Source: Lachnospiraceae bacterium (GTDB taxonomy: Bacteria > Bacillota > Clostridia > Lachnospirales > Lachnospiraceae). Taken from it: DNA of 64,000 bases. Both the position numbers and the translations under genes were made by a program. Positions 5,617 through 52,972 of the stretch are shown one piece after another. How positions within the stretch are numbered: the stretch's first letter is position 1; the number at the start of each line of letters is the position of its first letter. The notes below the pieces were generated by a model that ran no database searches, had not been told where the DNA came from, and was given only the letters and a program-made list of their open reading frames with translations. The stretch is from positions 1-64,000 of the forward strand of contig CAJTDK010000010.1 of NCBI GenBank assembly GCA_910575105.1, written 5' to 3'.

Positions 5617-5703
5617 ATCCTCTCTCCTTTCATCTTTAGCCCGGAAGCTTTGCTGTAGACAAACGCCGCCGGACGAATAATATCAGCATCAAAAAGTAAG
5701 CCA

Positions 5704-5732
5704 ATATTCTAATATATATATCGTCACGTCAA
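5704..5732 (-). promoter_or_regulatory. Candidate promoter of the chemoreceptor gene
   Basis: TTGACG and GAATAT are separated by 17 bases, upstream of the AGGAG site of the chemoreceptor gene. The -10 hexamer is imperfect. Confidence 0.4.
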
Positions 5733-5795
5733 AAAAATTGATAAGCATATTTTTTGCACATCTCACACAAATTTTGTCCTTTATGCCCCTGTCGC

Positions 5796-6836
5796 TTACG
5801 GCTTTAATCTGCAGTAGTCCTGTTCCCCATCCCTCACATGATAGTTCCCTACAGGAAACTTTAAGATGATCTTCGTCCCTTTTTGCTCCTCGGAATGTGC
5901 CTCTATCTCTATGCCAAGCTTCTCACATAAGTTCCGGCAAAGATACAGCCCCATCCCCGTCGCTCGTCTGGTCTGCCGCCCGTTGCTTCCGGTAAAGCCC
6001 TTCTCAAAAATACGCGGCAGTTCCTCTTTCTTTATGCCTGCGCCGTCATCCTCCACCGCAAGCCACACGCTCCTGTCTTTTTCCTCCGTATAAATCAGAA
6101 GGCGCTCCTTATCTCCTCTTTTATACTTCACACTGTTTAAGAACAGCTGATTCAGGATAAAGGAAATCCATTTCCCGTCGGTATATACGGAATGGGGGCA
6201 GTCAACCTCCGCCTGCACGCCGTTTAGGATCAGCTCATATTTGTTCTGCGCGAGCACGGCCGGGACGATCTCTGACAGAGCCGTTTTCCGGATCATATAA
6301 TCTTTGTACACCTCACCGGCCCTGGCGTAATAAAGCGCCATATCCACAAAGTTTTCTGTCTTTCTGTTCTCCAGCCAGATCCGTCTGGTAAGCCCGTTCT
6401 TATTATTCTCGCAGATCAGGGACACTCCGGTAATAGGTGCTTTGATCTCATGTACCCAGCTCTCGATAAACTCCTGGTACTCATCCTTTTCCTGTTCGAT
6501 GGCGCGTATCCGCTCGATGACTGATTTGTTGGACAGACGGATCATCTCCCGGTAAAGCCTGTCCTCAAGCTTCGGCGAATCCGGCATCAGCTCTCCCAAG
6601 AGATAGCGCTGATCCATCTTACTTAACAGCTTTGAAAGCTCCGAAAAATGTCTTTTCCGCCCATAAAAATCCACCCCGGAAACAGCCGCCGCCAAAAGGA
6701 AGTAGCAGATGAAAAGCAGCCGGCATAATTCGCCCGGATACCCCGTAAGACGCAGAAAAACCAAAACAACCGCCACACCAAAGATACGCCAGACCATCGC
6801 CAAAAATTTGTCTTTGATATACGCCGTAACGGTCAT
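5796..6836 (-). CDS. BceS-like intramembrane-sensing histidine kinase
   Basis: The 346-residue kinase has two short N-terminal membrane helices (about 14-30 and 38-56) with almost no extracellular loop, as in BceS kinases that read the activity of a partner BceAB transporter. The phosphoacceptor is His129 in WVHEIKAP, the N-box has Asn234 (LFLNSVKY), and the G boxes are VEDDGAGI and TGMGLYLC. Its start overlaps the regulator's stop by 4 bases, so the two are translationally coupled. The Bce-type ATPase and permease lie 2-5 kb downstream on the same strand and are the probable partners. Confidence 0.92.
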   Translation of the reverse strand: MTVTAYIKDKFLAMVWRIFGVAVVLVFLRLTGYPGELCRLLFICYFLLAAAVSGVDFYGRKRHFSELSKLLSKMDQRYLLGELMPDSPKLEDRLYREMIRLSNKSVIERIRAIEQEKDEYQEFIESWVHEIKAPITGVSLICENNKNGLTRRIWLENRKTENFVDMALYYARAGEVYKDYMIRKTALSEIVPAVLAQNKYELILNGVQAEVDCPHSVYTDGKWISFILNQLFLNSVKYKRGDKERLLIYTEEKDRSVWLAVEDDGAGIKKEELPRIFEKGFTGSNGRQTRRATGMGLYLCRNLCEKLGIEIEAHSEEQKGTKIILKFPVGNYHVRDGEQDYCRLKP

Positions 6837-7501
6837 ATGCGGTACCCCATTCCCCGTTTTGTCTCGATAAAGCCGCCAAGCCCCATGCTGCCAAGCTTAT
6901 TTCTGAGCCGGGTCACGTTGACGCTCAGGCTGTTGTCGTCGATATACACCTGATTATCCCACAGATATTCGATCATGTCCGCCCTTGGAACGAACTCTCC
7001 CTGTCTCTGAAACAGGCAGTGCAGGATCTTCATCTCATTTTTGGTCAGCTCCGCACTTTTCTCTCCGAAGGTGACGCATCCCTTTGCCAGATGAAGCTTT
7101 ACCCCCTTATACTGAAGCCGGGACAGCTCTCTGTCCGAATCCTTTTTCGCCCGCTTTAAGACTGCGGCGATACGTGCCAGAAGAACCGGCGGATAAAACG
7201 GCTTTGTGATATAATCATCGCCGCCCGTTATCATCCCGTTAAGCTCATCCGCAGAATCCGTCCGGCTGGTCAGGAAGATCACCGGCACATCTGATTGTAT
7301 CCGCACCTTGACGCAGATGTCAAAGCCCGACTCCCCAGGAAGGTTCAGGTCAAGCAGTACAAGGTCCGGATCTATCCTGAGAATATCTGCCGGCACCTGC
7401 CCGAACTCTCTGAGCGCCGTCACCTCGTATAATGCATTTTTAAGAAGAATCTCAAGCTCCTGCCGGATGACCGGCTCATCCTCAACAATTAAGATATTCA
7501 T
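6833..7501 (-). CDS. OmpR/BceR-family response regulator
   Basis: The 222-residue regulator has a receiver domain with acidic pocket EDE (7-9), phosphoacceptor Asp51 (LLDLNLPG) and conserved Lys in YITKPF, then a winged-helix DNA-binding domain ending TRLRNKLGSMG...KRGMGYRI. I set the start at 7501 because MNILIVEDE is the family start and AAAGGAGATTCAG precedes it. An in-frame start 45 bases upstream has no such site. It is phosphorylated by the kinase it is coupled with and probably activates the transporter genes. Confidence 0.93.
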   Translation of the reverse strand: MNILIVEDEPVIRQELEILLKNALYEVTALREFGQVPADILRIDPDLVLLDLNLPGESGFDICVKVRIQSDVPVIFLTSRTDSADELNGMITGGDDYITKPFYPPVLLARIAAVLKRAKKDSDRELSRLQYKGVKLHLAKGCVTFGEKSAELTKNEMKILHCLFQRQGEFVPRADMIEYLWDNQVYIDDNSLSVNVTRLRNKLGSMGLGGFIETKRGMGYRI

Positions 7502-7581
7502 CTGAATCTCCTTTGATACTGTCCATGGCTCAAAAATATCAAGCACTTATTACTTCAAGTATATCCCCGTCACAAGATGTA

Positions 7582-7612
7582 CACAAGGCCGCCCTTTCCC
7601 GGCAGCCCTGTG
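7582..7612 (-). terminator. Possible terminator after gpmI
   Basis: CACAGGGCTGCC and GGCGGCCTTGTG (minus strand) pair as an imperfect GC-rich stem 8 bases past the gpmI stop. A U-run is not evident. Confidence 0.35.
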
Positions 7613-7619
7613 CTTTTTC

Positions 7620-9158
7620 CTATTTCATGATCAATGACTTCCCGGTCATCTCTGCCGGCTGTTCCAAGCCCATCAACTCGATCAGCGTCGGGGCAATATC
7701 CGCAAGGCATCCGCCCTCTCTGAGCCTGTACGCCGGGTCGGCATTTACCAGGATAAACGGCACCGGATTGGTGGTATGTGCGGTAAATGGCTCTCCAGTC
7801 TCTTCGTCGATAAGCTGCTCTGCATTGCCGTGGTCCGCGCAGATAAACATCTGTCCTCCCACTTCCTTCACTGCATCCACTGCCTTTCCTACGCACTCAT
7901 CCACTGCCTCGATCGCCTTGATCGCAGCAGCCTCTACGCCGGTGTGTCCGACCATGTCCGGATTCGCAAAGTTGATGATGACTACATCATATTCCCCGGA
8001 TCTGATCGCCCCGGTCAGCTTGGCGCACACTTCATATGCGCTCATCTCCGGCTTCAGGTCGTAGGTGGCAACCTTCGGGGAATTGACAAGGATCCTGTCC
8101 TCGCCCTCATTCGGCTCCTCTACGCCGCCGTTGAAGAAAAATGTGACGTGGGCGTATTTCTCCGTCTCCGCGATACGTGCCTGCTTCAAGCCCTTTCTCG
8201 CAAGAAACTCCCCGAATGTATTGGTAATCTCTTCTTTTACAAATGCCACCTGCTTATTGGGAATGGTCACGTCGTACTCCGTAAAGCACACATAAGTCGT
8301 CTTTACTCTGCCGCCTCTGTCAAAACCGGTAAAGCTGTCGTCGCAGAAGGTTCTCGTAATTTCCCTTGCACGGTCCGGGCGGAAGTTGAAAAAGATAATG
8401 GAATCATTATCTTTGATTGTAGCCACCGGTGCGCCGTCCTTCATCACAACGGTAGGCAGAACGAACTCGTCTGTAGTTCCCTTATCGTAAGACGCCTGGA
8501 TTCCCTCCGGGCCGCCCGCCGCTGTCTCGCCTTCGCCATAAACCATCGCCCGGTAAGCCTTTTCCACACGTTCCCAGCGGTTATCCCTGTCCATGGCATA
8601 GTAGCGTCCCATAACCGTGGCTACCTCGCCCACACCGATCTCTTCCATCTTTGCCACTAACTCTTCCACATACTCTTTCCCCGATGCCGGAGGCGTGTCA
8701 CGCCCGTCTAAGAAGCAGTGTACGTATACCTTCTTAAGCCCCTGTCTTTTGGCCAGCTCCAAAAGACCGTAGATGTGTGTGTTGTGGCTGTGTACGCCGC
8801 CGTCGGACACAAGGCCGTACATGTGGAGGGCGCTGTCATTGTCCTTCGCATTCTCACATGCGGCGAGAAGGGCTTTATTTTCAAAGAAATCCCCGTCCTG
8901 GATCGCCTTAGTGATCTTCGTCAGATCCTGGTACACGATACGACCCGCGCCCATGTTCAGATGCCCTACCTCGGAATTGCCCATCTGTCCGTCCGGAAGT
9001 CCTACCGCCATACCGCTTGCATTCCCCTTCACAAAGGGGCACTCTGCCATCAGCCTGTCCATCACGGGGGTCTTTCCCTCTGCCACTGCATTCCCGGCAG
9101 TCTTCTCATTCAGTCCGTAACCATCTAATATCATTAATACCGTTGGTTTCTTGCTCAT
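7620..9158 (-). CDS. gpmI: 2,3-bisphosphoglycerate-independent phosphoglycerate mutase
   Basis: This cytosolic glycolytic enzyme interconverts 3- and 2-phosphoglycerate using two Mn ions. The product is 512 residues, the normal size. The metal-binding start ILDGYGLN (Asp12) and the phosphoserine site [12 protein letters not shown] (Ser62) are intact, as are [11 protein letters not shown] and, near the C-terminus, the metal segments DMVGHTG and CADHGNAE. It is the last gene of a glycolytic run (gap, pgk, tpiA, esterase, gpmI) on the minus strand, 19 bases after the esterase gene, so probably co-transcribed with it. Enolase is not in the window. Confidence 0.97.
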
Positions 9159-40523: not shown

Positions 40524-40604
40524 TTTCCGTCCTTTCTGCTGTCCTGCCCTGAATCCTTTGCCGCCTGCTCCTTTTCCTTTAAAACATTTTATATACCTGT
40601 GCGT

Positions 40605-41164: not shown

Positions 41165-41230
41165 TTAATATAAAAATGTTAGGCTCAAAAAGCATTTATG
41201 ACGCATTACAATTCTGTTTCGGAGGCTGTT

Positions 41231-41959
41231 ATGACAATCGCGATCGTAGATGATTCTTCAAAGGACATCGCACTTTTATATGAATATCTATGCCGGTACT
41301 GCAACGAACACAAGATCCATACCTCGATCAAAACATTTACCAGCGAGAGGGCTTTTCTTGACGCCTTTAAGACCGAAAAGCATGACCTTATCTTTCTCGA
41401 CATCTTCATGCAGGACTTGAACGGCATCCAGATTGCAAAGGCCGTCAAAAAGCTTCATCCCAGATGCCAGATCATCTTTTCGACCTCCAGCAGGGAACAT
41501 GCCATCAAAGCATTCCGCCTTCACGCCCTGGATTATCTGCTGAAGCCTTATACCTATGCCCGGCTTGAGGACGCGCTCAACTGTTATGAACATGCTGCCG
41601 CAAAGTTCACTCATTATATCGAGCTTAAGGAGGGGCGCTTCCAGACAAGGATTCTTATCACGGATATTATGTATGTAGACTACCACAATCATTATATTCA
41701 GGTACATACTCCGTTAAAGGTCGTCCGCTCCTATATGTCCTTCGGGGATTTTTCCCCGATGCTCTCTGCCTATGGACAGTTTTTGTGGTGCTACCGGAAC
41801 TGTATGGTCAATATGGATTATGTGGATTCCTGGGAGGACAGCGACTTCATTCTCAAAAACGGAGAACACCTGCCCATCATCAAATCTCAGCGCAAACAGA
41901 TCATCCAGACATATGCCAACTATATTTTTGATTATGTTAACGGAGGTGAGATATCGTGA
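41231..41959 (+). CDS. LytTR-family response regulator (AgrA-like)
   Basis: The 242-residue protein has a receiver domain with DDS (7-9), Asp57 (FLDIFMQD) and Lys in YLLKPY, then a LytTR DNA-binding domain (YIELKEGRFQTRILITDIMYVDYHNHYIQVHT...). The ATG at 41231 follows GGAGGCTGTT. It overlaps the kinase gene by 4 bases. AgrA-like proteins usually serve peptide quorum systems, but no peptide or AgrB gene is present. Confidence 0.92.
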   Translation: MTIAIVDDSSKDIALLYEYLCRYCNEHKIHTSIKTFTSERAFLDAFKTEKHDLIFLDIFMQDLNGIQIAKAVKKLHPRCQIIFSTSSREHAIKAFRLHALDYLLKPYTYARLEDALNCYEHAAAKFTHYIELKEGRFQTRILITDIMYVDYHNHYIQVHTPLKVVRSYMSFGDFSPMLSAYGQFLWCYRNCMVNMDYVDSWEDSDFILKNGEHLPIIKSQRKQIIQTYANYIFDYVNGGEIS

Positions 41960-43281
41960 CACCGGCTCATATTGTGAATACGTTTTGCTTTATCCTTCCC
42001 TGCTTTATCCTTCTGCTCCTTACTTTCAGGGATCATCTGCGCACCCCTGTCCTCATCCATGTTTCCGGAGCCATCCTTCTCTATCTTGCAGTCACCTTTT
42101 ACGGCTCCAGTACATATGCCAGCTTTGTCTCATTGCCGCTGAAATACATTGCCATCGACCTGGCTACCATCACTCTTGGCGCAGTCATCTTTGACATGGC
42201 CACCGGATACCGCCTGGGGCACGGCATTTTTATCGTTTCCATCGCAAAATGCTACGCAGAACATGTCACACTTCTTTCCATGTATATCTGTTTTCTGCTC
42301 CGGGGCCGTCTGCCTTCCTATGATACGTTCGATGCGTCCTTGATCAGGACTGTCCTGACTGTCGTTACCTTTCCGCTCATATACCGCTTTTTCCGGAGAT
42401 CACTGCGCCCTGCCCTGGACTATACCGCTTCCTTTTCCATGTGGAATCAGGTGTGGATCATCCCGATCTGCAACAACCTCCTCTATAACATGCTGTTTTC
42501 CCTGAATATATCCTCGCCTGACTTAGCGCCAGGCAGGTTTTTCTACTTTATCCCGCCGCTCTGGGTGCTTCTCACCTTCGCCACCTATATTCTGATCATG
42601 AAAATGGTCGTTGTGATCACGGAAAATGCAAATCTTCTGGAAAAGCTCCATATATCCGAAACTGTCTCTGCCTCACAGCGCAAGCAGACGGAGTTCCTCC
42701 AGCTCCAGATCGAACAGACCAGCCGGCAGCGCCACGATATGCGCCATCATCTTGTTGTGATCGACACATATATTAAGACGAAGGATATCGAGGGGCTTAA
42801 CACCTATATAAAAGAATACCGCTCCTCCCTGACTCCGCCGGCAGGCGTCTACTGCGAAAATCTTGCCTTAAATTCAATTATCGGGTACTACAAAGAGCGG
42901 TCAGAAGAAAAAGGCTCATCCTTTAACGTCCAAGTCTCCCTCCCCAAGGAACCGCTTTGTCCGGATATAGACCTGTGCGCCATCGTCTCCAATCTTCTGG
43001 AAAATGCCGCCGAAGCCTGCGCAAGGATGAAGTCTGAAAACAGCTTTATCAATGTAAAGATATCGGCCACGACCAACTCCCTCCTTGCCATCATCGTCGA
43101 AAATAGCTATGAAGGAGAGATTCAGAGATCTGGTAACACCTTTATTTCCTCCAAGAAAAAAGGACGAAAGGGGATCGGTATCTCCTCTGTCCTTAATATC
43201 GTTGAGCAATATAATGGATTATCAAAATTCGCATACCAGAACCAGGTATTTCAGGCATCGGTCCTGCTGAAGGTCAGGTAG
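41956..43281 (+). CDS. AgrC-like sensor histidine kinase
   Basis: The 441-residue kinase has about six N-terminal membrane helices (to about residue 220), a coiled linker, His in RQRHDMRHHL (near 258), and the short AgrC-type ATPase domain: SNLLENAAEAC (N-box) and GIGISSVLNIVEQYNG (G-box). The GTG start follows GGAGGTGAGATATC. Without an AgrBD pair its signal may be a peptide from elsewhere or another ligand. Confidence 0.9.
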   Translation: MTPAHIVNTFCFILPCFILLLLTFRDHLRTPVLIHVSGAILLYLAVTFYGSSTYASFVSLPLKYIAIDLATITLGAVIFDMATGYRLGHGIFIVSIAKCYAEHVTLLSMYICFLLRGRLPSYDTFDASLIRTVLTVVTFPLIYRFFRRSLRPALDYTASFSMWNQVWIIPICNNLLYNMLFSLNISSPDLAPGRFFYFIPPLWVLLTFATYILIMKMVVVITENANLLEKLHISETVSASQRKQTEFLQLQIEQTSRQRHDMRHHLVVIDTYIKTKDIEGLNTYIKEYRSSLTPPAGVYCENLALNSIIGYYKERSEEKGSSFNVQVSLPKEPLCPDIDLCAIVSNLLENAAEACARMKSENSFINVKISATTNSLLAIIVENSYEGEIQRSGNTFISSKKKGRKGIGISSVLNIVEQYNGLSKFAYQNQVFQASVLLKVR

Positions 43282-43320: not shown

Positions 43321-44526
43321 CTAAAGGCAGCTCATGTAATGATCTGCAATATACTGGCGGTAAAACGCTGCAAACCGCGCCACGCTGCCAATCTCTACAT
43401 GCTCGTCCGTGCAGTGCGCCTGCCGGTCATCTCCCGGTCCTGCGATAACAAAAGGAACCGGAAGTATTGGAATAAGCTGGGAGGCATCCGTATAAAAATG
43501 GGTTCCGCGGGGAATCCCGGAAAGCCCCATCTCCTGCGCAAGGCTCAATATACGTTTTACCTTCTCATCGCTTTCCTTTGTCCCCACTGCCGGACGGCAG
43601 TTCAGCGTTTCTATGCTAATACCTGCCCCCGGATGCTCTGCCTGTAGCGCCTGGCGTATCTTTTCGGCATGTTCCTTTACCTCATCGCAGGAAATTCCCG
43701 GAACTGTGCGGATGTCCAGTACAATCTCTGCCTCCGGGGGAATCATATTGGTCATGATTCCGCTCTTTATTTTCGTCACAGACACGCTGGCTCTTCCCAG
43801 AATCGGGTGTTCCCTGGCAGATTCTAGATATCTTTTCATCCGCCCGGCGAAGGCATATGCGATTTCCGCCGCATTTATGCCAAGCTCCGGTCTTGACGCA
43901 TGGGCGGCCGCCCCCTTAACCAGCGCCGACAGCCAGACAGCGCCTTTTTCGCAGATGCTGATCTGTTCGTCCGATGGCTCACAGATGATCACTTCCTCCA
44001 CTCCCGACAAGAGACCTGTCTCAGCGATCATTTGTATCCCCAGTCCTTTGTATTCTTCATCGGCAGTAAAGCAGAAATAGACGCTTTTCTCAAGCAGATG
44101 CCTTTCCTCCCACAGCTTTTCCATAGCCAGGATCATTGCCGCCACGCCGCCTTTCATATCCGCTGTCCCCCGCCCGTACATTACCCCGTCTTCTGTGTAA
44201 GCCTCAAGGGGCGGGTACTTCCATTCTTCTTCCCTGCCACAGGCCACCGTATCCAGGTGTCCGATCAAGGCAGCGCCGCCGTCCTCCGGCCACCCGCCGC
44301 TTTTTGTCTCTCCTCTGAGTTCTACGACCAAAGAAGCCCTTCCCTGCCCATGGTCAAGTTTCGTATACTCTGCATCTTTCGGAAGTCTGCCTATGATGAA
44401 GTCCACAAGCCCTTCCTCATTCCCCGCCGGCTGGCAGGTATCTGTCCTGATCAGTCTCTTCAGCAGCACATCGCACTGCTCCTCAGAAGGTTCCCATATA
44501 TTTCCCGTCATTTTATTCTGCGGCAT
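43321..44526 (-). CDS. M20-family metallohydrolase (ArgE/DapE/ACY1-like)
   Basis: The 401-residue zinc hydrolase has ALIGHLDTVACG, GRGTADMKGGVAAM, catalytic FTADEEYKG and CEPSDEQ, plus a dimerisation insert, so metal ligands and base are intact. Family members cleave N-acyl groups from amino acids or small peptides. It overlaps the amidohydrolase gene by 14 bases and is the last gene of the ECF cluster. It differs clearly from the other M20 gene at 48.5 kb, so each may act on a different intermediate. Confidence 0.92.
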   Translation of the reverse strand: MPQNKMTGNIWEPSEEQCDVLLKRLIRTDTCQPAGNEEGLVDFIIGRLPKDAEYTKLDHGQGRASLVVELRGETKSGGWPEDGGAALIGHLDTVACGREEEWKYPPLEAYTEDGVMYGRGTADMKGGVAAMILAMEKLWEERHLLEKSVYFCFTADEEYKGLGIQMIAETGLLSGVEEVIICEPSDEQISICEKGAVWLSALVKGAAAHASRPELGINAAEIAYAFAGRMKRYLESAREHPILGRASVSVTKIKSGIMTNMIPPEAEIVLDIRTVPGISCDEVKEHAEKIRQALQAEHPGAGISIETLNCRPAVGTKESDEKVKRILSLAQEMGLSGIPRGTHFYTDASQLIPILPVPFVIAGPGDDRQAHCTDEHVEIGSVARFAAFYRQYIADHYMSCL

Positions 44527-45892
44527 TATTTTTCCCTCCCTGTCTTACCTGTGCATACATGGCCAGATCTCCAACACCCGTTTTTCTTACCATGCCGAAC
44601 TTGCTTACCCATCCCCCGGCGCCTGTATGTCTTCTCACGATCCGGTGTTCAAATGACACGATCTGGCCGTTCACGATAGTATACGTAGCAAGCTTATCAT
44701 CCGTATCTACCACTGCGATATTGGCCAGAGCCCCAACTTCCAGATGTCCCGTCTTTTCCCTCCACCATGGATTTTGCGTCCTCTCCGCTAAAAGTTCTGC
44801 CGGGTTGCAGGTCATGGACGCCACCGCCTGGCTCAGCGTCAATACACCCGTCTGAGACAATTCCAGGATGGCCGGAATATTATCTCTCGTATCGCCAAAG
44901 CCCTTCATCGTCCCGTGGTTCTGCCCGTCTGAAACCAGAATCCTTACCTTTCCCTCCGAAAGCGCGTCATAAGCCGCCCTCTGGGACTTTTTTGTCATCT
45001 GTAAGCCCTCCCTGCTGCCAAGCCCCGGCCGGAGCATGGTAGTGACAAACTCACCGGTAATCTGTCTTCCGTCGATGAGCTTTAACACTCTTTGGATGCC
45101 CTCCGCCGGATCACCGTGTGTCCCGCATCCTGCCGCCGTCACATGGGCGAGATGGAGCGGCCTTCCTTTTGACAGTCCCGCCATCCGCTCCGCATGCTCC
45201 GGGTCCTGGGTATGGGACATATAAAGAAGCCCCGCCTCAGCGGTGATCTCATAGATCTTTTCAATCCCTTCATCTGGCATGATAAAATGCCCCATATGGT
45301 CCTTAATGCCAATGGTCAGATTCGCCGTAGTATTCGTAATACTGTTTCTAGTCATTTTATCAGACAGCACCTCTGCCTCTGCCTCGCCCCTGAACATTGA
45401 GACCAGCTCCTGTACCGTCATCCGTGTTCCCAGTACATTGGCGGCGCCTAAGTACACCCCCAGGTTCAGGGGAACGCCTCTGTCCACCTCGGCTCCCAAA
45501 AGCGCCGGAGCCATAAACGTGTTCCCCGCTCCCGGCGACAGGCCTATCGTTACGCCATCCTCTGCCGCGCAGAAGACAGAGCCTGTACTGACCTCAAACA
45601 AGTCCCCCAGATGAAGGTGCATATCCAGAAGTCCCGGCATCACCAGCAATCCTTCACAGTCAATAATTCTGTCCCCGTTTTCCGGCCTGATCATCCCGCC
45701 GGCCTGATGCACGACTCCGTCGAGAACCGCCAGGTCCATCACCTCATCCTTGTTATTCCCGGGATCCACCACGCGGCCCCCTTTTAAAATCAGACGTCCC
45801 CCAAAAGGGACGTCTGCGTATATCTCCTGCATCTTGTTTTTCTCAACATGCGCCAGATTTTCATTCATGAAACTCATCTTATTTTTATACAT
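44513..45892 (-). CDS. Amidohydrolase with carboxylated-lysine site (dihydroorotase/isoaspartyl dipeptidase-like)
   Basis: The 459-residue enzyme has the amidohydrolase plan: a beta-sandwich start, DMHLHLG (HxH, near 96), Lys in TIGIKDHMG for metal bridging, His in MSHTQD and LAHVTA, and Asp in LVSDGQNH. Relatives hydrolyse cyclic ureides, N-acyl-D-amino acids or isoaspartyl peptides. It follows the LacI gene by 12 bases. The start at 45892 after GGTGGAAAT is tentative; later in-frame Met codons (residues 9 and 21) are alternatives. Confidence 0.88.
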   Translation of the reverse strand: MYKNKMSFMNENLAHVEKNKMQEIYADVPFGGRLILKGGRVVDPGNNKDEVMDLAVLDGVVHQAGGMIRPENGDRIIDCEGLLVMPGLLDMHLHLGDLFEVSTGSVFCAAEDGVTIGLSPGAGNTFMAPALLGAEVDRGVPLNLGVYLGAANVLGTRMTVQELVSMFRGEAEAEVLSDKMTRNSITNTTANLTIGIKDHMGHFIMPDEGIEKIYEITAEAGLLYMSHTQDPEHAERMAGLSKGRPLHLAHVTAAGCGTHGDPAEGIQRVLKLIDGRQITGEFVTTMLRPGLGSREGLQMTKKSQRAAYDALSEGKVRILVSDGQNHGTMKGFGDTRDNIPAILELSQTGVLTLSQAVASMTCNPAELLAERTQNPWWREKTGHLEVGALANIAVVDTDDKLATYTIVNGQIVSFEHRIVRRHTGAGGWVSKFGMVRKTGVGDLAMYAQVRQGGKNNAAE

Positions 45893-45904
45893 ATTTCCAC
45901 CAGC

Positions 45905-46924
45905 CTATCGGTTCAAATCCTTTACACTTTTCCGGATGACCAATTCAGGCTCAAACTGAATCTTTTCTTTTTTCGGTTTCTTTTCTTTAATACCGGCGAT
46001 CATCTGCCTGACCGCCTCTTTTCCCATCTCATATACCGGCTGTCTTACACTGGTTAAAGGCGCGTTGAAAATATCAGAAAAGCCCACGTCGTCATATCCC
46101 ACCACAGACACATCCTCCGGAACCGTCTTCCCGTTCTTCCCCGCCCAGCGGTAAACGCCGTAAGCCGTCAGCTCGTTGTAGGCAAAGATCGCGGTCACGC
46201 CTCTTTTCATCAGGTACTCTGCCCCCCGTTCGCCGCTTTCCATATCATAATTTCCCTCGTAGACGTCTCTGCCGTCAAAGGAAATACCGGACTCCCTAAG
46301 CGCCCTTTTAAAGCCTTCTGTTCTCATGCGGGAGTCTTCCAGATTGTCCGGTCCTGTAATGCATCCGATTCTTTTGTGGCCCATCCCGGCCAGATGCTTC
46401 CCTGCCAGATACCCGCCCTTCTCATGGTCTGTGGCTACAAAATAAGGCTCCACGTCAGACACATACCTGTCCACCATGATATGAGGCACCCCCAGCTCTC
46501 CGATCAGCCCCAGCGTTTCCCGAAGCTGAGCCGGGTCATCTTCCTTGGCAAAGCACAAAATGATCCCGTCCGCACCCTTATCGTCCAGTGTGCGGATATA
46601 TTCCATCTCCCGCTTATGGTAATCGTTCGTATTACAGAGGATGAGATTCCATCCTTCCCGGCGGCATTCATCCTCCACTCCCTTCGTAAGCGTCGCAAAA
46701 AAGCTGTTGCTTACATCCGAAATAACCAGCCCGATGGTCCTTGTCTGCTTTTTGATCAGCCCTACCGCCAATTGGTTGGGACGGTACTTCAGCTCCTTCA
46801 CAACCTCCAGCACTCTTTTCTGGGTCTGCTCCGGAATTGACCTGGCCTTATTGTTCAGCACAAGGGAAACCGTCGTCACCGAACACCCTGCACTTTTCGC
46901 TATATCTTTCATCGTAACACGCAT
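45905..46924 (-). CDS. LacI-family transcriptional regulator
   Basis: The 339-residue repressor starts MRVTMKDIAKSAGCSVTTVSLVLNNKARSIPEQTQKRVLEV, a LacI helix-turn-helix and hinge, then a type-1 periplasmic-binding-like sensor domain (VISDVSNSFFATLTKGVE...). It has its own promoter (46961-46989) inside the cluster. A LacI-type operator lies at the promoter of the first cluster gene, the likely target. The inducer is probably the imported compound or a product of it. Confidence 0.95.
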   Translation of the reverse strand: MRVTMKDIAKSAGCSVTTVSLVLNNKARSIPEQTQKRVLEVVKELKYRPNQLAVGLIKKQTRTIGLVISDVSNSFFATLTKGVEDECRREGWNLILCNTNDYHKREMEYIRTLDDKGADGIILCFAKEDDPAQLRETLGLIGELGVPHIMVDRYVSDVEPYFVATDHEKGGYLAGKHLAGMGHKRIGCITGPDNLEDSRMRTEGFKRALRESGISFDGRDVYEGNYDMESGERGAEYLMKRGVTAIFAYNELTAYGVYRWAGKNGKTVPEDVSVVGYDDVGFSDIFNAPLTSVRQPVYEMGKEAVRQMIAGIKEKKPKKEKIQFEPELVIRKSVKDLNR

Positions 46925-46960
46925 CTGTTATTTTCCCTGACCTCTGCACATGATAAGCAT

Positions 46961-46989
46961 ATTTTACCAGTACGCCGCTTAATTGTCTA
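46961..46989 (-). promoter_or_regulatory. Internal promoter before the LacI gene
   Basis: TAGACA and TAAAAT are separated by 17 bases in the 89-base spacer between the amidotransferase-like and LacI genes. Confidence 0.55.
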
Positions 46990-47013
46990 GGAAAAACTTT
47001 TTACCTGCCTTTC

Positions 47014-47754
47014 TTACCGGCTTACCCAGTCTGCGATGTTTTTCCACATTAAGTCATAATATTCCCATTCGCAGAACTCTACGGGCGCCCAGTGGGGGGC
47101 GCAGTCTGTTGTTACTACGGCGGAGCGGCCTTTTTCACACTCCATGACTGCGATAAATGGATCTCCCTCTACCTCTGCAAGCACCTCTGCGCCTTCTCTT
47201 GCTGCCGTCTTATTGTAGCCCAGTACCTCTGGAAACTCCTGGGGAATCCCTTTCAGTATCTCATGCGTCTTTACCGCTCTTGGCGTCACTCCCTCGCAGT
47301 GCTCCATCCGATCGTCCACGGTAAGGACTTCCACCGGCAGCACCTCCTGAACCGGGGTGTCATGCCATTTTCCCTTAGCATCCACGCCGGAAAAGGTCAG
47401 ATAGCCCCCAACCATGATCAGGCCGCCGCCTTCTCTCACATAATCCCGGATGAGCTTCGTCCGGTTCGGTCTCTTCTCACTCCTTGCAAATGTAGCGCTT
47501 GGCAGCAAAAGGGTATTCGCCCCGATGTCAGATAGAATCACGCACCCATACTCCTTAAGCTCCTCCACAGTAAACGGGAACTCCTCCGCCGCCAGATGGT
47601 TCGGGAGAAAATCAACCTGGTACCCTCCCTTTTCAAGCGCCGCCTTAAGCCACTTTTCACCTGTCTCATACACAGAGGTGTAAAAAGCGTCGGCGCCCTT
47701 TACATGTGTGGTGTAGCTCATCCACGACTCCCCTGCCAATAATATTTTTTTCAT
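47014..47754 (-). CDS. Glutamine-amidotransferase-like protein (GATase1-like)
   Basis: The 246-residue protein begins KKILLAGESWMSYTTHVKGADAF and has LSDIGANTLLL, then REGGGLIMVGGYLTFSG, features of the PF07090-type class I amidotransferase-like group. The expected nucleophile Cys in a GxCxG loop is not apparent, so amidotransferase chemistry is doubtful. No reaction is established for this group to my knowledge. It is 16 bases after the M24 gene, in the same operon. Confidence 0.8.
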   Translation of the reverse strand: MKKILLAGESWMSYTTHVKGADAFYTSVYETGEKWLKAALEKGGYQVDFLPNHLAAEEFPFTVEELKEYGCVILSDIGANTLLLPSATFARSEKRPNRTKLIRDYVREGGGLIMVGGYLTFSGVDAKGKWHDTPVQEVLPVEVLTVDDRMEHCEGVTPRAVKTHEILKGIPQEFPEVLGYNKTAAREGAEVLAEVEGDPFIAVMECEKGRSAVVTTDCAPHWAPVEFCEWEYYDLMWKNIADWVSR

Positions 47755-47770
47755 CCTGCAACCTCCGGTT

Positions 47771-48475
47771 TTACATTCTTTTTAATCTGCCATCTGAAAA
47801 ATAGTAGATATCTTCTTGTTTAAATCCATACTTTGAGCCCGGCAGACTGATATGAGGCTCAAAAGTAAACATCGACACGGACGAAAGCTTGCGGGCATTG
47901 CCCTTCTCGCTGTAAATCCTGTCCTCGTCCCGCTTTTCAATGGAATGCCCGAAATTCCCCAGGCAGTCCAGGTTCCGGTAGCCCTTTTCCTCCACCAGAG
48001 TGTTGATCCTCTCATGGAGGTCTTCAAAGGTCATGTCCTCGCGGGCAATATCCAGAAGCGTCTCATGAAGGAGCTCCTCCATAAAAAGTCCGTTTCTCCA
48101 CTCTTCGTTCATTATCTTTGCGATGTCGCCCACAGGCTTTCCATCCTCAAGGATGATGGTTCTCGCAAAATCTCCCCACACGCCGCGTCTCTGAGGGCTT
48201 AAATCTATGGTGATAATGTCGTTTTCTCCGATACGTTTGTCTGACGCCTCATATGTATCCGGCACGACAGAAACCGCCGTCTCATCCCCGGAGAACATAA
48301 ACGCTCCCACACCGCACCACCAGAAGGAATCCGCGCCGTGGCCGAGCATGTATTGCTCGCACTCCGCCCGCAGCTCCCTTAAGTTCATCCCAGGCGCAAG
48401 GACGCTCCTTGCATGCTCCATAGTCTCACGCCCAAGATCCTGCATGGCAAAATATTCTTTCGTAATCTCTGTCAC
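47771..48475 (-). CDS. M24-family metallohydrolase, minimal form
   Basis: The 234-residue protein has the pita-bread fold ligands of M24: Asp in ITIDLSPQ, Asp in WGDFART, His in FGHSIEKRD, and Glu in FTFEPHI. It lacks the N-terminal creatinase-like domain seen in Xaa-Pro peptidases and creatinases, and is also smaller than MetAP. It could be a dipeptidase, a creatinase-like hydrolase or something else. I chose the GTG at 48475 after AAGGGAGTTTAGAC; it starts 2 bases after the M20 stop. Confidence 0.82.
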   Translation of the reverse strand: MTEITKEYFAMQDLGRETMEHARSVLAPGMNLRELRAECEQYMLGHGADSFWWCGVGAFMFSGDETAVSVVPDTYEASDKRIGENDIITIDLSPQRRGVWGDFARTIILEDGKPVGDIAKIMNEEWRNGLFMEELLHETLLDIAREDMTFEDLHERINTLVEEKGYRNLDCLGNFGHSIEKRDEDRIYSEKGNARKLSSVSMFTFEPHISLPGSKYGFKQEDIYYFSDGRLKRM

Positions 48476-48477
48476 GT

Positions 48478-49779
48478 CTAAACTCCCTTCTGCATATCCG
48501 GCGTTTCGCCCCATTCCATAATCAGATTGGCATAAATCTTTATGGCGTCCAGATACTGGTCCACGGTGACAAATTCATTGACCGCATGGCACTGTTCAAG
48601 GGAACCCGGGCCATACTGAAGGGTCGGGCATCCCACGATGTTATGCCATGTCCTGGAGTCACATCCCGCCGGAGAACCCACAAGCTTTACGTCCAATCCC
48701 CTGGCGTCCCGATAAGCCTCTTTGAACGCGCCCACAAAAGGATGGTCTAATTCCATCTCAAAAGGGTTCCCCATCTGGTAAGTCGTGACCTTCGGAAGAT
48801 GGTCTTTCAGCCATTCGTCCCCTTTGCACCGCTCGTAGATCGCCTGGGTATATTCCTCGATGACCTGCTCCCGGCTCATCACTCCGGGAAGATAGTGGAC
48901 GCAGGTCTTAAAGCAGCAGTAATCCGGGATGGTGGATCCTGCCTCGCCCCCATAGATCACGCCCACGTTGCTGGACGGCGGTGGAAGGAGGGGATGCTTG
49001 TACTTCAGGAGCCACTTATGTTCTAACTGATTGATGGCGTCCATCAGAAATCCGGCCTTTTCGATAGCATTGACTCCCGCAAGCTTTAACCCAGAATGGA
49101 CAGCGATTCCCGGCACCTCTACTTGGAAAAACACCCAGCCCATATGGGCCACGATCACCTCATAATTCGTCGGCTCACACACCACCACCGCGTCAGCTTT
49201 CACACCGCTCACCGCCGCGCACAGAGACCCGTTTCCGCCTCCCTCTTCATCGCAGACAGACGCATATTTAACCGTGACAGGAAGTTCGATCCCCGCGTCC
49301 TTAAGCACCATGCCGGCCATGATCCCGGCCATCAGCCCCGCCTTCATGTCAGCCACTCCAAGCCCGGTGATCCTGTCTCCGATCACCTCCGGCCTCAGCG
49401 GGTCGATCTTCCAGTTTTCCAGGTTATCCGCCGGCATATGGTCGATATGCCCGTTAAAAAGAATCGACTTGTCCGTCTTTCCCTTAAAGGTAGCGTACAC
49501 ATTAAAACGATTGTCATAGTTATGCCCTTTGTTTCCCTCATTGTACAGTTCATTGCACTTAAGTACGGCTTCCTCACTCAGGGGATCTTTCACTACCTCG
49601 TCCGCCCCCATGTCTTCAAATACTCCGGCAAGATAATCCTGCCCTTCTCCTTCTAAGCCCCCGTCAATCCCATGCCCGATGTCATGAGTGTCAATGCTTA
49701 CAAGCTTTAGCAGATAGTCAATATACTTCTGCTTATTTTGTTCTACTGTCTTTTCAATGATCTCACTGTATTTTTTCAT
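48478..49779 (-). CDS. M20-family metallohydrolase (YgeY-like)
   Basis: The 433-residue hydrolase has ILFNGHIDHMPADN, GLGVADMKAGLMAG, the catalytic CDEEGGGN and CEPTN, and AVHSG in the dimer domain. It resembles YgeY of E. coli, whose gene is near dihydropyrimidinase-like and carbamate-metabolism genes; that role is not firmly settled. It follows the second ECF ATPase gene by 4 bases, so uptake and hydrolysis are tied together. Confidence 0.9.
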   Translation of the reverse strand: MKKYSEIIEKTVEQNKQKYIDYLLKLVSIDTHDIGHGIDGGLEGEGQDYLAGVFEDMGADEVVKDPLSEEAVLKCNELYNEGNKGHNYDNRFNVYATFKGKTDKSILFNGHIDHMPADNLENWKIDPLRPEVIGDRITGLGVADMKAGLMAGIMAGMVLKDAGIELPVTVKYASVCDEEGGGNGSLCAAVSGVKADAVVVCEPTNYEVIVAHMGWVFFQVEVPGIAVHSGLKLAGVNAIEKAGFLMDAINQLEHKWLLKYKHPLLPPPSSNVGVIYGGEAGSTIPDYCCFKTCVHYLPGVMSREQVIEEYTQAIYERCKGDEWLKDHLPKVTTYQMGNPFEMELDHPFVGAFKEAYRDARGLDVKLVGSPAGCDSRTWHNIVGCPTLQYGPGSLEQCHAVNEFVTVDQYLDAIKIYANLIMEWGETPDMQKGV

Positions 49780-49783
49780 TATG

Positions 49784-50596
49784 TCAGCTCCTTAGCCTGC
49801 GCTCTGCTGCATCTGCAAGTTCCCTTGGGTTTAAGATGTCGCTCCCAAGCCCCATCTCCTTTGCCACCATTCCCATCTCCGTGCGCTTGATCTTGCTCTC
49901 TTTTATGACCTCATCTCTTGAGAAGATCTCCCTGGCGCTCCCGTCCGCGATAATATGCTTGTTGGCCATGGCGATGACTCTCTTAAAATTATCCGCCACA
50001 AACTCCATGTCATGGGTAATGGTCACAACCCCGATCTTCTGCCCCCGAAGATACCCCAACAGTTCCTCTAAAAGCCGGATTCCCCGTAGATCCTGCCCTG
50101 CCGTAGGCTCGTCCAGGATAATATACTCAGGGCGGACTACCAGGATCGCCGCAATCGTGACAAGCTTTCGTATCGTATAAGGGATCTCGTAAGGGTTGCA
50201 CTTCAAAAACTCCCTGATCTGCATAACGTCAGCAGCCTCATCCACGCGTTTCTTTGTTTCTTTTTCTGTATATTTATAATATTTCGGCATGTATGCAATC
50301 TCGTCATACACCGTCTGATTGAAAATCTGATCGTCCGGGTTCTGGAATACGTATCCCACATATTTCGCAATCTGCGCCGTGGTATAATCCTTCGTATCCT
50401 TATCATTGATATACACCGTGCCCTCTGTGGGCTTATTCAGCCCGTTCATCAGCTTAACCGCCGTAGTCTTGCCTGCGCCGTTCTGCCCTACGATGGCAAC
50501 CTGCTCCTCCTGCGAGATGGTAAGGTTCAGATCCTCATTTGCAAGAAATCCGTTGGGATACCGAAAGCTTACATGGTCCAATATGATCCGGTTCAT
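49784..50596 (-). CDS. ECF transporter ATPase (EcfA)
   Basis: The 270-residue ATPase has Walker A GQNGAGKTT, Q-loop FQNPDDQIFN (typical of EcfA), and Walker B EYIILDEPTAGQDLRG with His in VTITHD. In place of the usual LSGGQ, it has YTIRKL, an unusually degenerate signature motif (see findings). The start is the ATG at 50596 after AGGAGAGGAGAGCGT; it overlaps the preceding ATPase gene by 4 bases. Confidence 0.92.
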   Translation of the reverse strand: MNRIILDHVSFRYPNGFLANEDLNLTISQEEQVAIVGQNGAGKTTAVKLMNGLNKPTEGTVYINDKDTKDYTTAQIAKYVGYVFQNPDDQIFNQTVYDEIAYMPKYYKYTEKETKKRVDEAADVMQIREFLKCNPYEIPYTIRKLVTIAAILVVRPEYIILDEPTAGQDLRGIRLLEELLGYLRGQKIGVVTITHDMEFVADNFKRVIAMANKHIIADGSAREIFSRDEVIKESKIKRTEMGMVAKEMGLGSDILNPRELADAAERRLRS

Positions 50597-51462
50597 ACGC
50601 TCTCCTCTCCTTTCTTTCCCTGAATCATGCCCGCAAGCTGGCTTACACATTCGCTCTTTGTGATAGGCACCTTGGAAAACACATGTCCCCGCGCGCTGAA
50701 TTCCTGATAAAAGGAAACCGTATGGGGGATCATGACGCCCTGTCCGGTCAGGGTAAAATCAGAAAGCACCTCTGAAGTCCGCCCCTTAGCCAGCAGCTCT
50801 CCTTTCTTTAACACAAGCACCTCATCCGCATATTCTGCCAGAAGGTCGATCTTATGCTCCACTAACACGATTGTCTTTCCCTGCTCCTTCAGCTTGTGGA
50901 TAATCTCGAAGATCCCTGCCGTCCCGTCCGGGTCAAGCTGTGAAGTAGGCTCGTCGATAACAAATGTATCCGTATCCATGGCAATGACCGAGGCAAACGC
51001 TACCTTCTGCCGCTGCCCTCCTGAGAGGGCGTTGGGATTGTTCTGTAAGAGATGTTCAATGTTCAAAAGCTCTGCAATCGAAAAGACCTTTTCAATCATC
51101 TCCTCCTTGGGGATGCCAAGATTCTCCATCCCAAGGGCTATCTCTTCAAAAACGGTGTTCTTCACCCCGCTGATCTGGGTAAAGGGATTCTGGAAGATGT
51201 AGCCCATCTGGGTAGAAAGCACATCCATATTAAGCGTCCGGATATCCTCGCCGTCGATCAGCACATCCCCCTTTAGCTTTCCTTTGTAAAAATGAGGGAT
51301 CAGGCCCCGGAGCAGGTTACACAGCGTCGTCTTCCCTCCTGCATTTTCACCGATCACCCCGTAAAACTTCCCTCTCTCAAAGGATGCCGTAACCTGCTTA
51401 AGCGCCGGCTCCTTCGCCAGAGGATACACATAATCCACATCCTTTAATTCAATATAAGCCAT
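50593..51462 (-). CDS. ECF transporter ATPase (EcfA')
   Basis: The 289-residue ATPase has Walker A GENAGGKTT (a variant of GxxGxGKT), FQNPFTQISG, canonical signature ALSGGQRQK, and Walker B TFVIDEPTSQLDPDG with His in VLVEHK. It pairs with the EcfA above, and the two would form a heterodimer with one normal signature motif. The ATG at 51462 follows GGAGGGTTGCAGG; it overlaps the EcfT gene by 19 bases. Confidence 0.92.
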   Translation of the reverse strand: MAYIELKDVDYVYPLAKEPALKQVTASFERGKFYGVIGENAGGKTTLCNLLRGLIPHFYKGKLKGDVLIDGEDIRTLNMDVLSTQMGYIFQNPFTQISGVKNTVFEEIALGMENLGIPKEEMIEKVFSIAELLNIEHLLQNNPNALSGGQRQKVAFASVIAMDTDTFVIDEPTSQLDPDGTAGIFEIIHKLKEQGKTIVLVEHKIDLLAEYADEVLVLKKGELLAKGRTSEVLSDFTLTGQGVMIPHTVSFYQEFSARGHVFSKVPITKSECVSQLAGMIQGKKGEESV

Positions 51463-52259
51463 CCTGCAACCCTCCATACAACAGATAATACAAGCAAGAT
51501 ATCCACAACCGCTACAAGCGCCTTTTCGCCGCCCTTCACCTTGGGAAGCTCCAGCAGGTAGGTGTGGGTGCCGGCTGCCGAGAAGGCTCTGGCATCCATA
51601 GCGATCGATTTTTCCTCTACGCTGGAAATGGCGTTGAGAACCAGCGGCCCCATGACGGGAATATAGGCTTTGATCCTCCGGATCACGTTGCCCTCCGTCT
51701 CAATCCCTCTTGCCTTCTGTGATTCCATGATCACCTTCGCATTCACCCCTAGGTCACTGATGGATTGGAACGCCGACAGTATCACAAAGGAAGTCACATG
51801 GGATACCCCTTTTTGTTCAAGCGCATAAGTAAGGTCGCTCCACTCTGTGGTCTGCACGAACATAATGACCGCAGCGCAGAAAGCCAGCACCCCAGACGTC
51901 AGCACCAGCGCCGAATGAAGGCTCTCCACCGAGATGTGGATCCCCCATTTTTGCCACAGGATCTGCTCCCCCGGGGAGAACGCCGCTTTCATCCCAAATA
52001 AGAATACGCCGAAAAACAGCAGGATCTTCCAGTACACCTTCAGGTAAGAGCGCAGGCACCCAGCCAGCACCGCCACCGCCAGCAGAAAAACCACCATACC
52101 GAACCCGTACCGATAATCCCCCAGGATCAATGCGCTCAGCCCAAAGGCCAGAAATATATTCAGTTTGCTCAAAGGATTCAGATCCTTAATAAAGTTGCCC
52201 GTGCGTTTCGGCTCAAGAAACTGGTTTGCAAATGTTCTGTTATCCATAAAGTTCTCCAT
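51444..52259 (-). CDS. ECF transporter transmembrane subunit (EcfT)
   Basis: The 271-residue membrane protein has about five helices and the EcfT coupling helices with Ala-Arg-Gly motifs: SQKARGIETEGN and AMDARAFS. It links the ATPases to the substrate-binding S subunit. An inner ATG at 52247 with GGAG spacing is an alternative start. The presence of a dedicated EcfT and two ATPases in one operon with one S component is the group I arrangement. Confidence 0.92.
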   Translation of the reverse strand: MENFMDNRTFANQFLEPKRTGNFIKDLNPLSKLNIFLAFGLSALILGDYRYGFGMVVFLLAVAVLAGCLRSYLKVYWKILLFFGVFLFGMKAAFSPGEQILWQKWGIHISVESLHSALVLTSGVLAFCAAVIMFVQTTEWSDLTYALEQKGVSHVTSFVILSAFQSISDLGVNAKVIMESQKARGIETEGNVIRRIKAYIPVMGPLVLNAISSVEEKSIAMDARAFSAAGTHTYLLELPKVKGGEKALVAVVDILLVLSVVWRVAGWLILN

Positions 52260-52309
52260 TCTGCCGCCTTGTTAAGGCAGCACAAGTTTTGTCCGGTCCG
52301 CTGCACTAC

Positions 52310-52894
52310 TTATTCTTCCATTTCTTTAATAAAAAATGCTGCATTAGGCAGTTTTACCTTCAATCTATCCGGAATTGCCTTTAATACAAAGAAGATGATG
52401 ATGAGGCATACGATCTTGTCCGTTCCTTCGCTCACCGCCTCGCTGACAAATGTAGCCGGCAGTACGTCCCATCCGGATGCCATCAATGCCGCTGCGATCG
52501 TCGTAGCTCCTGTTCCTGCGAATCCGCCCAAGAAAAACGCCGTTGTAGGAACAGCCAGGCACACTGCCACAAGCGCCACGCCGATTCCGGACAATGCTGA
52601 TTTCCAAAGAGACTTAAAGATTCCCCACTTTGCAAAAAAGAAAGACTCGACCGCAAACAACATGCCGATCTCAATATAGGCAAGCACTGTCGGGGTCGTG
52701 ATGGCATTGATCAGCTGCGTTCCCACGGCTACCACAAGTCCCGGCCCGATCCCGCACAGCGCCGCTGTGACAAACGTGCCGATACAGTCTAAAAATACCG
52801 GCAATTTTAACGCCAGCGCCAATTGTCCGCCCACGGCGTTGACTGCGATTCCGATAGGGATTAAAAAGATTGTCAGCTTGTTCCATTTCTTCAT
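52310..52894 (-). CDS. ECF transporter substrate-binding subunit (S component)
   Basis: The 194-residue membrane protein has about six helices, an N-terminal KLTIFLIPIGIAVNAVGGQLALALKLPVFLDCIGTFVTAALCGIGPGL and conserved Gly/Ala helices as in ECF S components. The ligand cannot be read from the sequence. The ATG at 52894 follows AAGGAGTGATTTTC. It is the first gene after the LacI-type operator and promoter, so induction would raise uptake first. Confidence 0.88.
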   Translation of the reverse strand: MKKWNKLTIFLIPIGIAVNAVGGQLALALKLPVFLDCIGTFVTAALCGIGPGLVVAVGTQLINAITTPTVLAYIEIGMLFAVESFFFAKWGIFKSLWKSALSGIGVALVAVCLAVPTTAFFLGGFAGTGATTIAAALMASGWDVLPATFVSEAVSEGTDKIVCLIIIFFVLKAIPDRLKVKLPNAAFFIKEMEE

Positions 52895-52914
52895 GAAAAT
52901 CACTCCTTTTCCTT

Positions 52915-52932
52915 TAGTAAAACGTTTTATTA
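52915..52932 (-). promoter_or_regulatory. LacI-type operator
   Basis: The perfect 12-bp palindrome TAAAACGTTTTA, extended by TA/TA outside one mismatch, has the central CG of LacI-family sites. It begins about 5 bases past the predicted transcription start, so a bound repressor would block transcription. Confidence 0.8.
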
Positions 52933-52943
52933 GTGTTTTTTAC

Positions 52944-52972
52944 ATAGTATCACCATTACATTTATTTGTCAA
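52944..52972 (-). promoter_or_regulatory. Promoter of the ECF-hydrolase cluster
   Basis: TTGACA and TACTAT are separated by 17 bases, upstream of the operator and the S-component gene. Confidence 0.8.

Follow-up and report, generated by a model that had tools for sequence, protein, structure and literature searches.

Gene content and layout

The window analyzed here is a 64,000-nucleotide stretch of DNA from a Lachnospiraceae bacterium (contig CAJTDK010000010.1, contig 10 of a 4.24-Mb draft genome in 86 contigs). Positions 43321-52894 are occupied by ten open reading frames (ORFs), all on the minus strand, which encode in order of transcription the S component, the transmembrane component EcfT (T) and two ATPases (A1 and A2) of an energy-coupling factor (ECF) transporter, an M20 enzyme (M20a), an M24 hydrolase, a GATase1-like protein (GATL), a LacI-family regulator, an amidohydrolase (AH) and a second M20 enzyme (M20b; Table 1). 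An earlier note on this DNA had described a one-strand cluster of ten genes here, and its position, order and families were borne out by ORFs and by Pfam and NCBIfam matches, two labels aside. On balance, we favor reading the genes as a LacI-controlled operon that imports and degrades a ribonucleoside or similar riboside.

The junctions, followed along transcription, are a spacer of 50 bp, two overlaps, 4 bp, an overlap, 16, 89 and 12 bp, and a final overlap. Spacers of 4 bases or overlaps, which the earlier note saw in most places, are thus found at five of nine junctions, the others being 50, 16, 89 and 12 bp. For the S gene we preferred the ATG at 52894, which has GGAG upstream and gives 194 aa as in the relative L034/L040, over a GTG at 52903.

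Table 1. Features of the operon in order of transcription.
Feature	Position	Strand	Remark
Sigma-70-type promoter TTGACA-17-TACTAT	52944-52972	-	scores 10 of 12
TAAAACGTTTTA palindrome, proposed LacI operator	52918-52929	-	kept before S in 9/17 ECF-type loci (one mismatch or none)
ECF S component (194 aa), CD3073-like	52310-52894	-	NCBIfam NF045596 match, below cut-off
EcfT transmembrane component	51444-52259	-	CbiQ PF02361, 86.4 bits
ECF ATPase 1	50593-51477	-	best model TIGR04520, 216.2 bits, cut-off 315
ECF ATPase 2	49784-50650	-	likelier start 50596 (270 aa, matching L034)
M20a, ArgE/DapE-type deacylase	48478-49779	-	TIGR01910, 226.2 bits, cut-off 217.6
M24 hydrolase without N-terminal domain	47771-48514	-	five putative metal-ligand residues invariant in alignment
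GATL, PF07090 GATase1-like protein	47014-47754	-	328.9 bits; without conserved nucleophile-elbow Cys
LacI-family regulator	45905-46924	-	nearest RbsR/PurR models, under their cut-offs
AH, metal-dependent cyclic-amidase-like amidohydrolase	44513-45892	-	PF01979, 49 bits
M20b, second M20 enzyme	43321-44526	-	AH partner in ECF-free genomes too

Conservation of the unit

A scan of a species-genome collection with an AH alignment yielded 53 loci, or 54 with the window; genes of relatives were called by a simple longest-ORF choice. The loci fall without overlap into 17 with a complete ECF module, 3 with a BMP/PnrA-type ABC importer, 25 with a membrane protein found outside the window (MEM3) and 9 in which none of these three was seen, some of them on short contigs. 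Absences mean little for the short contigs of L037, L053, L066, L067, L073, L075, L076, L081 and L091. Titles of the ECF-locus records name Lachnospiraceae, Oscillospiraceae, Anaerolinea, Pelolinea and an actinobacterium.

The proposal that a dedicated ECF importer and a breakdown route form one unit withstood comparison with other genomes, since module and hydrolases are conserved together: all ten genes recur in the same order in three other contigs (L040, L045 and L046), and the core recurs in more. In L045 and L046 the gene run extends into a ribokinase-like gene (226.8 bits in L045; cut-off 299.65). Among the 17 ECF loci, M20a accompanies GATL in 13, and LacI is present in 12, a count that leaves out a 24% match in L070. 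A GDSL-lipase-like gene lies between ATPase and M20a in L081-L084, where M24 was not seen. Judged by AH, Lachnospiraceae bacterium 3-2 is the closest relative with a name (L040, 81%). The distribution of the unit is patchy, because AH is matched at 50% identity or more in 7 of 397 genomes of the same family and S at 96% or more in 2 of 6 genomes of the genus (own genome included in each). We found no AH relatives in viral contigs and none in plasmids. The unit is real, conserved and regulated, and its likely role can be defined better than in the earlier note.

Promoter, operator and regulator

The palindrome TAAAACGTTTTA sits between the promoter and the S gene, where the earlier note had placed an operator. 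The promoter region is not enriched over shuffles (10 promoter-like sites; shuffle mean 10.0). With at most one mismatch the palindrome occurs at two sites in the window, the exact one and one at 40580, where 0.09 are expected. The nine ECF loci with such a site upstream of S are the window, L040, L045, L046, L073, L080, L082, L083 and L084, and in these only 0 to 8 of 300 shuffles were equally good. Sites with two mismatches precede S in L077, L078 and L081 (equaled by 23 to 30 of 300 shuffles). In L052, L061, L069, L070 and L087 the best site upstream of S has at least three mismatches and is shuffle-like (161 to 289 of 300), and these five loci fall outside the well-supported clade of the window in the S tree, a comparison that leaves out L046, L078 and L082-L084.

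The regulator has a LacI DNA-binding domain (PF00356, 60.2 bits; cut-off 27) and scores below the cut-off of the RbsR model NF047341 (268.3 bits against 382). The pattern of conservation supports a link between the LacI protein and this predicted operator. A second promoter-like site just before LacI (TAGACA-17-TAAAAT, 46961-46989) is within chance for its region.

The transporter

S, T and two ATPases are encoded together, the gene criterion for Group I, so that by gene set the transporter is a dedicated Group I ECF importer, with uptake predicted. At E 0.001 no Pfam family matches the S component, PF12822 (QueT/QrtT) included. In NCBIfam the protein matches NF045596 alone, the model for the CD3073 family of ECF S components (72.9 bits against a cut-off of 180); three relatives reached 76.5, 102.8 and 120.2 bits. 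In all S proteins scanned (window, L040, L182 and L191) the CD3073 model was the only match and stayed under its cut-off, which suggests a subfamily neighboring the CD3073 equivalog for the window protein. The earlier note had weighed its reading against a known vitamin transporter; no vitamin S-component family was matched by the window S component in Pfam or NCBIfam, the protein being CD3073-like instead.

The hydrolases and their partners

AH has the amidohydrolase fold with the HxH, K, H, H and D ligands of the dihydroorotase/hydantoinase/allantoinase superfamily, which agrees with the earlier idea of a cyclic amide as a plausible target. Among the best 25 of 37 NCBIfam rows it lies far under every cut-off. 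We rejected a dihydroorotase, as the AH profile has Gly in place of the Arg that follows HxH in aligned dihydroorotases (HVHLRD) and the equivalog scores are at most 56.1 against cut-offs of at least 405 (TIGR00857, 40.2 against 279.05). AH also scores under the models for hydantoinase/dihydropyrimidinase (TIGR02033, 37.3; cut-off 393.25) and allantoinase (TIGR03178, 33.1; cut-off 357.85). One locus, L053, carries a tandem AH pair (4856-7717; 64% and 52% identity to the window AH).

In the MEM3-type loci this protein replaces the ECF module beside AH, together with M20b in 19 of 25 and a PucR regulator in 17 of 25. MEM3 has the overall fold of SLC14/UT urea transporters, an assignment that rests on VIA-align; the urea-transporter rows in Foldseek have TM about 0.5, all with E-values above 0.001. 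The top Foldseek rows, VMAT2/MATE, had TM under 0.2 and were discarded as meaningless.

M20a passes the ArgE/DapE model TIGR01910, of which M20b falls short at 199.2 bits. The label YgeY-like, given earlier to M20a, could not be kept: against TIGR03526 (cut-off 321.5) M20a scores 105.5 bits and M20b 113.2. The M20a gene is split over two open frames in L036 (8070-9352, same contig as L078) and is a single frame in the very similar locus L077. In M24, residues D104, D115, H190, E219 and E234, which we take to be the usual metal ligands, are invariant across seven aligned sequences. M24 is present in just 7 of 17 ECF loci, and a creatine route argued from M24 alone was dropped on that ground. 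For GATL, the amidotransferase-like label survives as the name of the PF07090 fold, whereas a glutamine amidotransferase activity was rejected, as the GxCxG cysteine is not conserved in 16 aligned sequences; the sole invariant Cys is C218, in DCxPHW.

Riboside genes beside relatives of the operon

The main clue to the substrate, overlooked by the earlier note, lies beside relatives of the S component. Such relatives occur in 48 genomes of the family at E 1e-15 or better. We opened 12 loci not linked to AH (in two cases the genome has an AH-linked copy besides) and added two from a search of the genus; neighborhoods were viewed to 6.5 kb from S, and G136 was skipped (short contig, internal stop). 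These 14 loci (32 to 40% identity) have a nucleoside hydrolase in 8, with one further weak case, and a PfkB-family kinase in 8, one or the other being present in 13. Four of the hydrolases are nearest RihA, RihC or UriH by NCBIfam, below equivalog cut-offs; the kinase of L191 is above the ribokinase cut-off, and L184 has a uridine-phosphorylase-like phosphorylase. A tree of 26 S proteins divides those linked to AH between the clade of the window and another group, less well supported, in which kinase- and hydrolase-linked ones are interspersed.

Both gene sets meet in L061, where a single run holds PucR, AH and M20b along with the ECF module, a pair of PfkB-like genes, BtpA, a nucleoside hydrolase that scores 228.3 with the RihC model (cut-off 382), and an M24 gene truncated by the contig end. 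In the Oscillibacter locus L089, a BMP-type importer and a RihB-like hydrolase adjoin M20a and GATL, and no ECF genes were seen. At E 1e-20, 13 of the 398 genomes searched in the phylum carry PF07090, this one among them. The 12 other loci have an M20a-like gene in the GATL run in 9, a BMP importer with a nucleoside hydrolase in 6 and a PfkB kinase in 7; the kinase of L110 is above the ribokinase cut-off, and L112 has a D-ribose pyranase. A blastn search of E. coli genomes for the L110 GATL found none. GATL also occurs in 193 of 72,556 plasmid records; among the 15 opened, a PfkB or ribokinase is annotated in 11 and an M20 or 'Zn-dependent hydrolase' in 7. These genes (nucleoside hydrolase, ribokinase, BMP/PnrA or ribose-type ABC importer) indicate a riboside and make creatine, pantothenate amides and isoaspartyl peptides, all suggested earlier, less likely.

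Several clusters contain further genes. A proteobacterial unit (L129, L130, L132, L133, L136, L141 and L142) combines a ribose-type ABC importer, a phosphotriesterase-like protein, GATL, PfkB and BtpA/SgcQ, often with LacI and sometimes with TenA and M20. Plasmids of Arthrobacter and Rhodococcus (L137 and L138) carry GATL, LacI, a ribokinase-type kinase, phosphoribosyl pyrophosphate (PRPP) synthase and nicotinate phosphoribosyltransferase, in L137 also a nucleoside hydrolase, together with a luciferase-like monooxygenase, an aldehyde dehydrogenase and an amidohydrolase; the cluster presumably resembles pyridine-degradation gene sets, and ribosylated intermediates are possible. The neighbors of GATL in L116 and L117 include, by eye, threonine aldolase (L116), threonine synthase, threonine dehydratase, RidA and an M20. 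A CD3073-like ECF operon in L182, L183 and L187 has an MFS protein, a uridine-phosphorylase-like enzyme, a TenA-like protein and a nucleoside hydrolase. ORFs of 633 to 650 aa beside ECF nucleoside-type operons (L179, L181, L189 and L191) match LacI or PfkB and are perhaps regulator-kinase fusions. Next to the operon in the window, a convergent gene pair at 41198-43281 resembles, by eye, a LytTR response regulator and a sensor kinase.

Proposed pathway and alternatives

From gene content, conservation, co-occurrence, the fold and metal ligands of AH and the conserved operator, all of them observed, we infer the substrate, each catalytic and transport activity and the following order of steps. 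Until freed by an inducer, the LacI protein would occupy TAAAACGTTTTA, immediately downstream of the promoter. The ECF transporter (S, T and two ATPases) would capture the riboside, whose base is, on the best reading, a cyclic amide. AH would open the cyclic amide or ureide ring, and M20a and M20b would hydrolyze the resulting N-acyl or N-carbamoyl amino acid. GATL would be part of this pathway as well; as a ribokinase-type kinase usually accompanies it, its place is probably close to the ribose end. M24 would add a step that is optional. A ribokinase-like kinase, encoded at the operon end in close relatives and at another place in this genome, would channel the ribose into metabolism.

5,6-Dihydrouridine is a common tRNA nucleoside, and its base is a cyclic ureide that needs no reductase. 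It is our leading candidate, a tentative one, and agrees with hydrolases of pyrimidine type, with a cyclic ureide as the ring, with the missing reductase and with the urea-like partner. A wider proposal, more doubtful, is that CD3073-like ECF systems are nucleoside importers, that the window branch feeds a dedicated and as yet undescribed catabolism of 5,6-dihydrouridine, a saturated tRNA nucleoside (AH opening the ring, M20 enzymes releasing beta-alanine, and GATL with ribokinase recovering the ribose), and that in other bacteria a new branch with the urea-transporter fold supplies the same two base-degrading enzymes.

Several observations weigh against a riboside with a cyclic amide base. 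The operon of the window has neither a nucleoside hydrolase nor a kinase; the genome's single IU nucleoside hydrolase is distant and in another setting, and the best ribokinase-like match in the genome is under cut-off (221.8). The structural ranking of AH does not tell a cyclic amidase from an acylase of that superfamily, the acylase side scoring 33.5 for N-acyl-D-glutamate deacylase, 32.7 for D-aminoacylase and 32.1 for isoaspartyl dipeptidase. M20a and M20b are, by their models, of the ArgE/DapE type and outside the carbamoylase family that usually follows a hydantoinase; TIGR01879 (hydantoinase/carbamoylase, cut-off 204) was not among the best 25 rows for either (last rows 50.9 and 67.9 bits). 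The 14 S loci were picked among the highest-ranking ones, and their neighbors were recognized with reference proteins that stem from the present inquiry; L192 has neither hydrolase nor kinase. Four of the 15 plasmid loci (L131, L134, L139 and L140) lack a PfkB or ribokinase, GATL and ribokinase of L137/L138 lie inside an apparent pyridine-type degradation cluster, the TenA genes of some S and GATL clusters are a hint of an aminopyrimidine instead, and the divergent GATL of L116 and L117 lies near apparent threonine-catabolism genes.

Among the other explanations, an import of a cyclic amide or ureide without ribose (a hydantoin, a dihydropyrimidine or a cyclic dipeptide), with the nucleoside genes of relatives reflecting transporter swapping, is improbable. 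It would account for an operon without a nucleosidase and for the 25 of 54 AH loci with the urea-transporter-fold protein, none of which has a match to a nucleoside hydrolase or kinase in our gene tally, but nucleoside or ribokinase-type neighbors mark the S group in 13 of 14 loci, and L061 unites ECF, AH, M20b, M24 and a nucleoside hydrolase. Salvage of a vitamin or cofactor fragment (nicotinamide riboside, or a thiamine or vitamin B6 derivative), not its use as food, is less probable again: the operon has no vitamin-biosynthesis gene, four metallohydrolases with a LacI regulator suit a catabolic unit, and no vitamin S-component family was matched. It would agree with the usual vitamin cargo of ECF importers, with a TenA-like gene in the S cluster L182 (120.9 bits; cut-off 130) and by eye in L183, L187 and proteobacterial GATL clusters, and with nicotinate phosphoribosyltransferase near GATL in L137 and L138.

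Two further proposals rank lower. If the riboside were N6-threonylcarbamoyladenosine or its cyclic hydantoin form, AH would open the hydantoin and M20 would cleave the threonine amide, freeing adenine and threonine. The cyclic-amidase-like AH, an ArgE/DapE-type M20 suited to an N-acyl amino acid and the threonine genes seen by eye in L116 and L117 would be in keeping with this, but those genes adjoin a GATL with no more than 40 to 42% identity, the nucleoside hydrolases of related clusters are nearest pyrimidine-preferring or non-specific models, and no adenine-handling gene was seen in the clusters opened; we regard it as quite unlikely. Least probable of all is a conjugate of a sugar with an amine, for instance the Amadori product that ribose forms with an amino acid, for which GATL and PfkB kinases that recur with ribose-type ABC importers, and a SIS-domain-like protein in L111 (by eye), could speak; nucleoside hydrolases in both ECF and BMP clusters argue against it. 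Each line of evidence for a riboside is an association, and since S relatives, L061, L089, PF07090 loci and plasmid GATL loci point the same way, a riboside is together the best single reading, with a little better than even confidence.

ECF transporters are known mainly as scavengers of vitamins and metals, and a nucleoside-catabolic branch, if true, would widen their role. It would also give a function to CD3073-like S components, which now carry a family name only, and a defined fate in gut bacteria to modified tRNA nucleosides, plentiful where RNA is digested.

Comparison with known systems

The earlier note knew of no pathway with this gene set, and we too found none in the open-access part of the literature, which held nothing on CD3073 and nothing relevant from the pyridine or PRPP angle. 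Dihydrouridine is not in the main text of PMC8910321, on N-ribohydrolases. Like other Group I ECF transporters, the system encodes its S, T and two A components within a single operon. Known Group I members import vitamins or metals for salvage, whereas the window system is tied to hydrolases and a LacI repressor. In PMC7755397, ECF transporters are described as micronutrient scavengers, and the word nucleoside is not in its main text.

A salvage precedent for a modified nucleoside is one C. difficile QrtT, which carries preQ1, queuine and queuosine according to PMC11130926. The QueT/QrtT systems resemble the proposed pathway in ECF import of a tRNA-derived nucleoside or base and in the service of a nucleoside hydrolase. 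The window differs in its S family (no PF12822) and its catabolic gene set, with no queuine enzymes recognized; queuosine was rejected as substrate on account of the S family.

Degradation of hydantoin, dihydropyrimidines and allantoin proceeds by a cyclic amidase and then an M20 enzyme, and the window shares the AH fold, the metal ligands and the AH-M20 pairing. It differs in an AH below the cut-offs among the best 25 of 37 NCBIfam rows, ArgE/DapE-type M20 enzymes, ECF import and the ribose genes of relatives. BMP/PnrA importers with a nucleoside hydrolase and ribokinase have the same M20a, GATL and LacI partners in other genomes, whereas in the window an ECF transporter stands in place of that transporter class.

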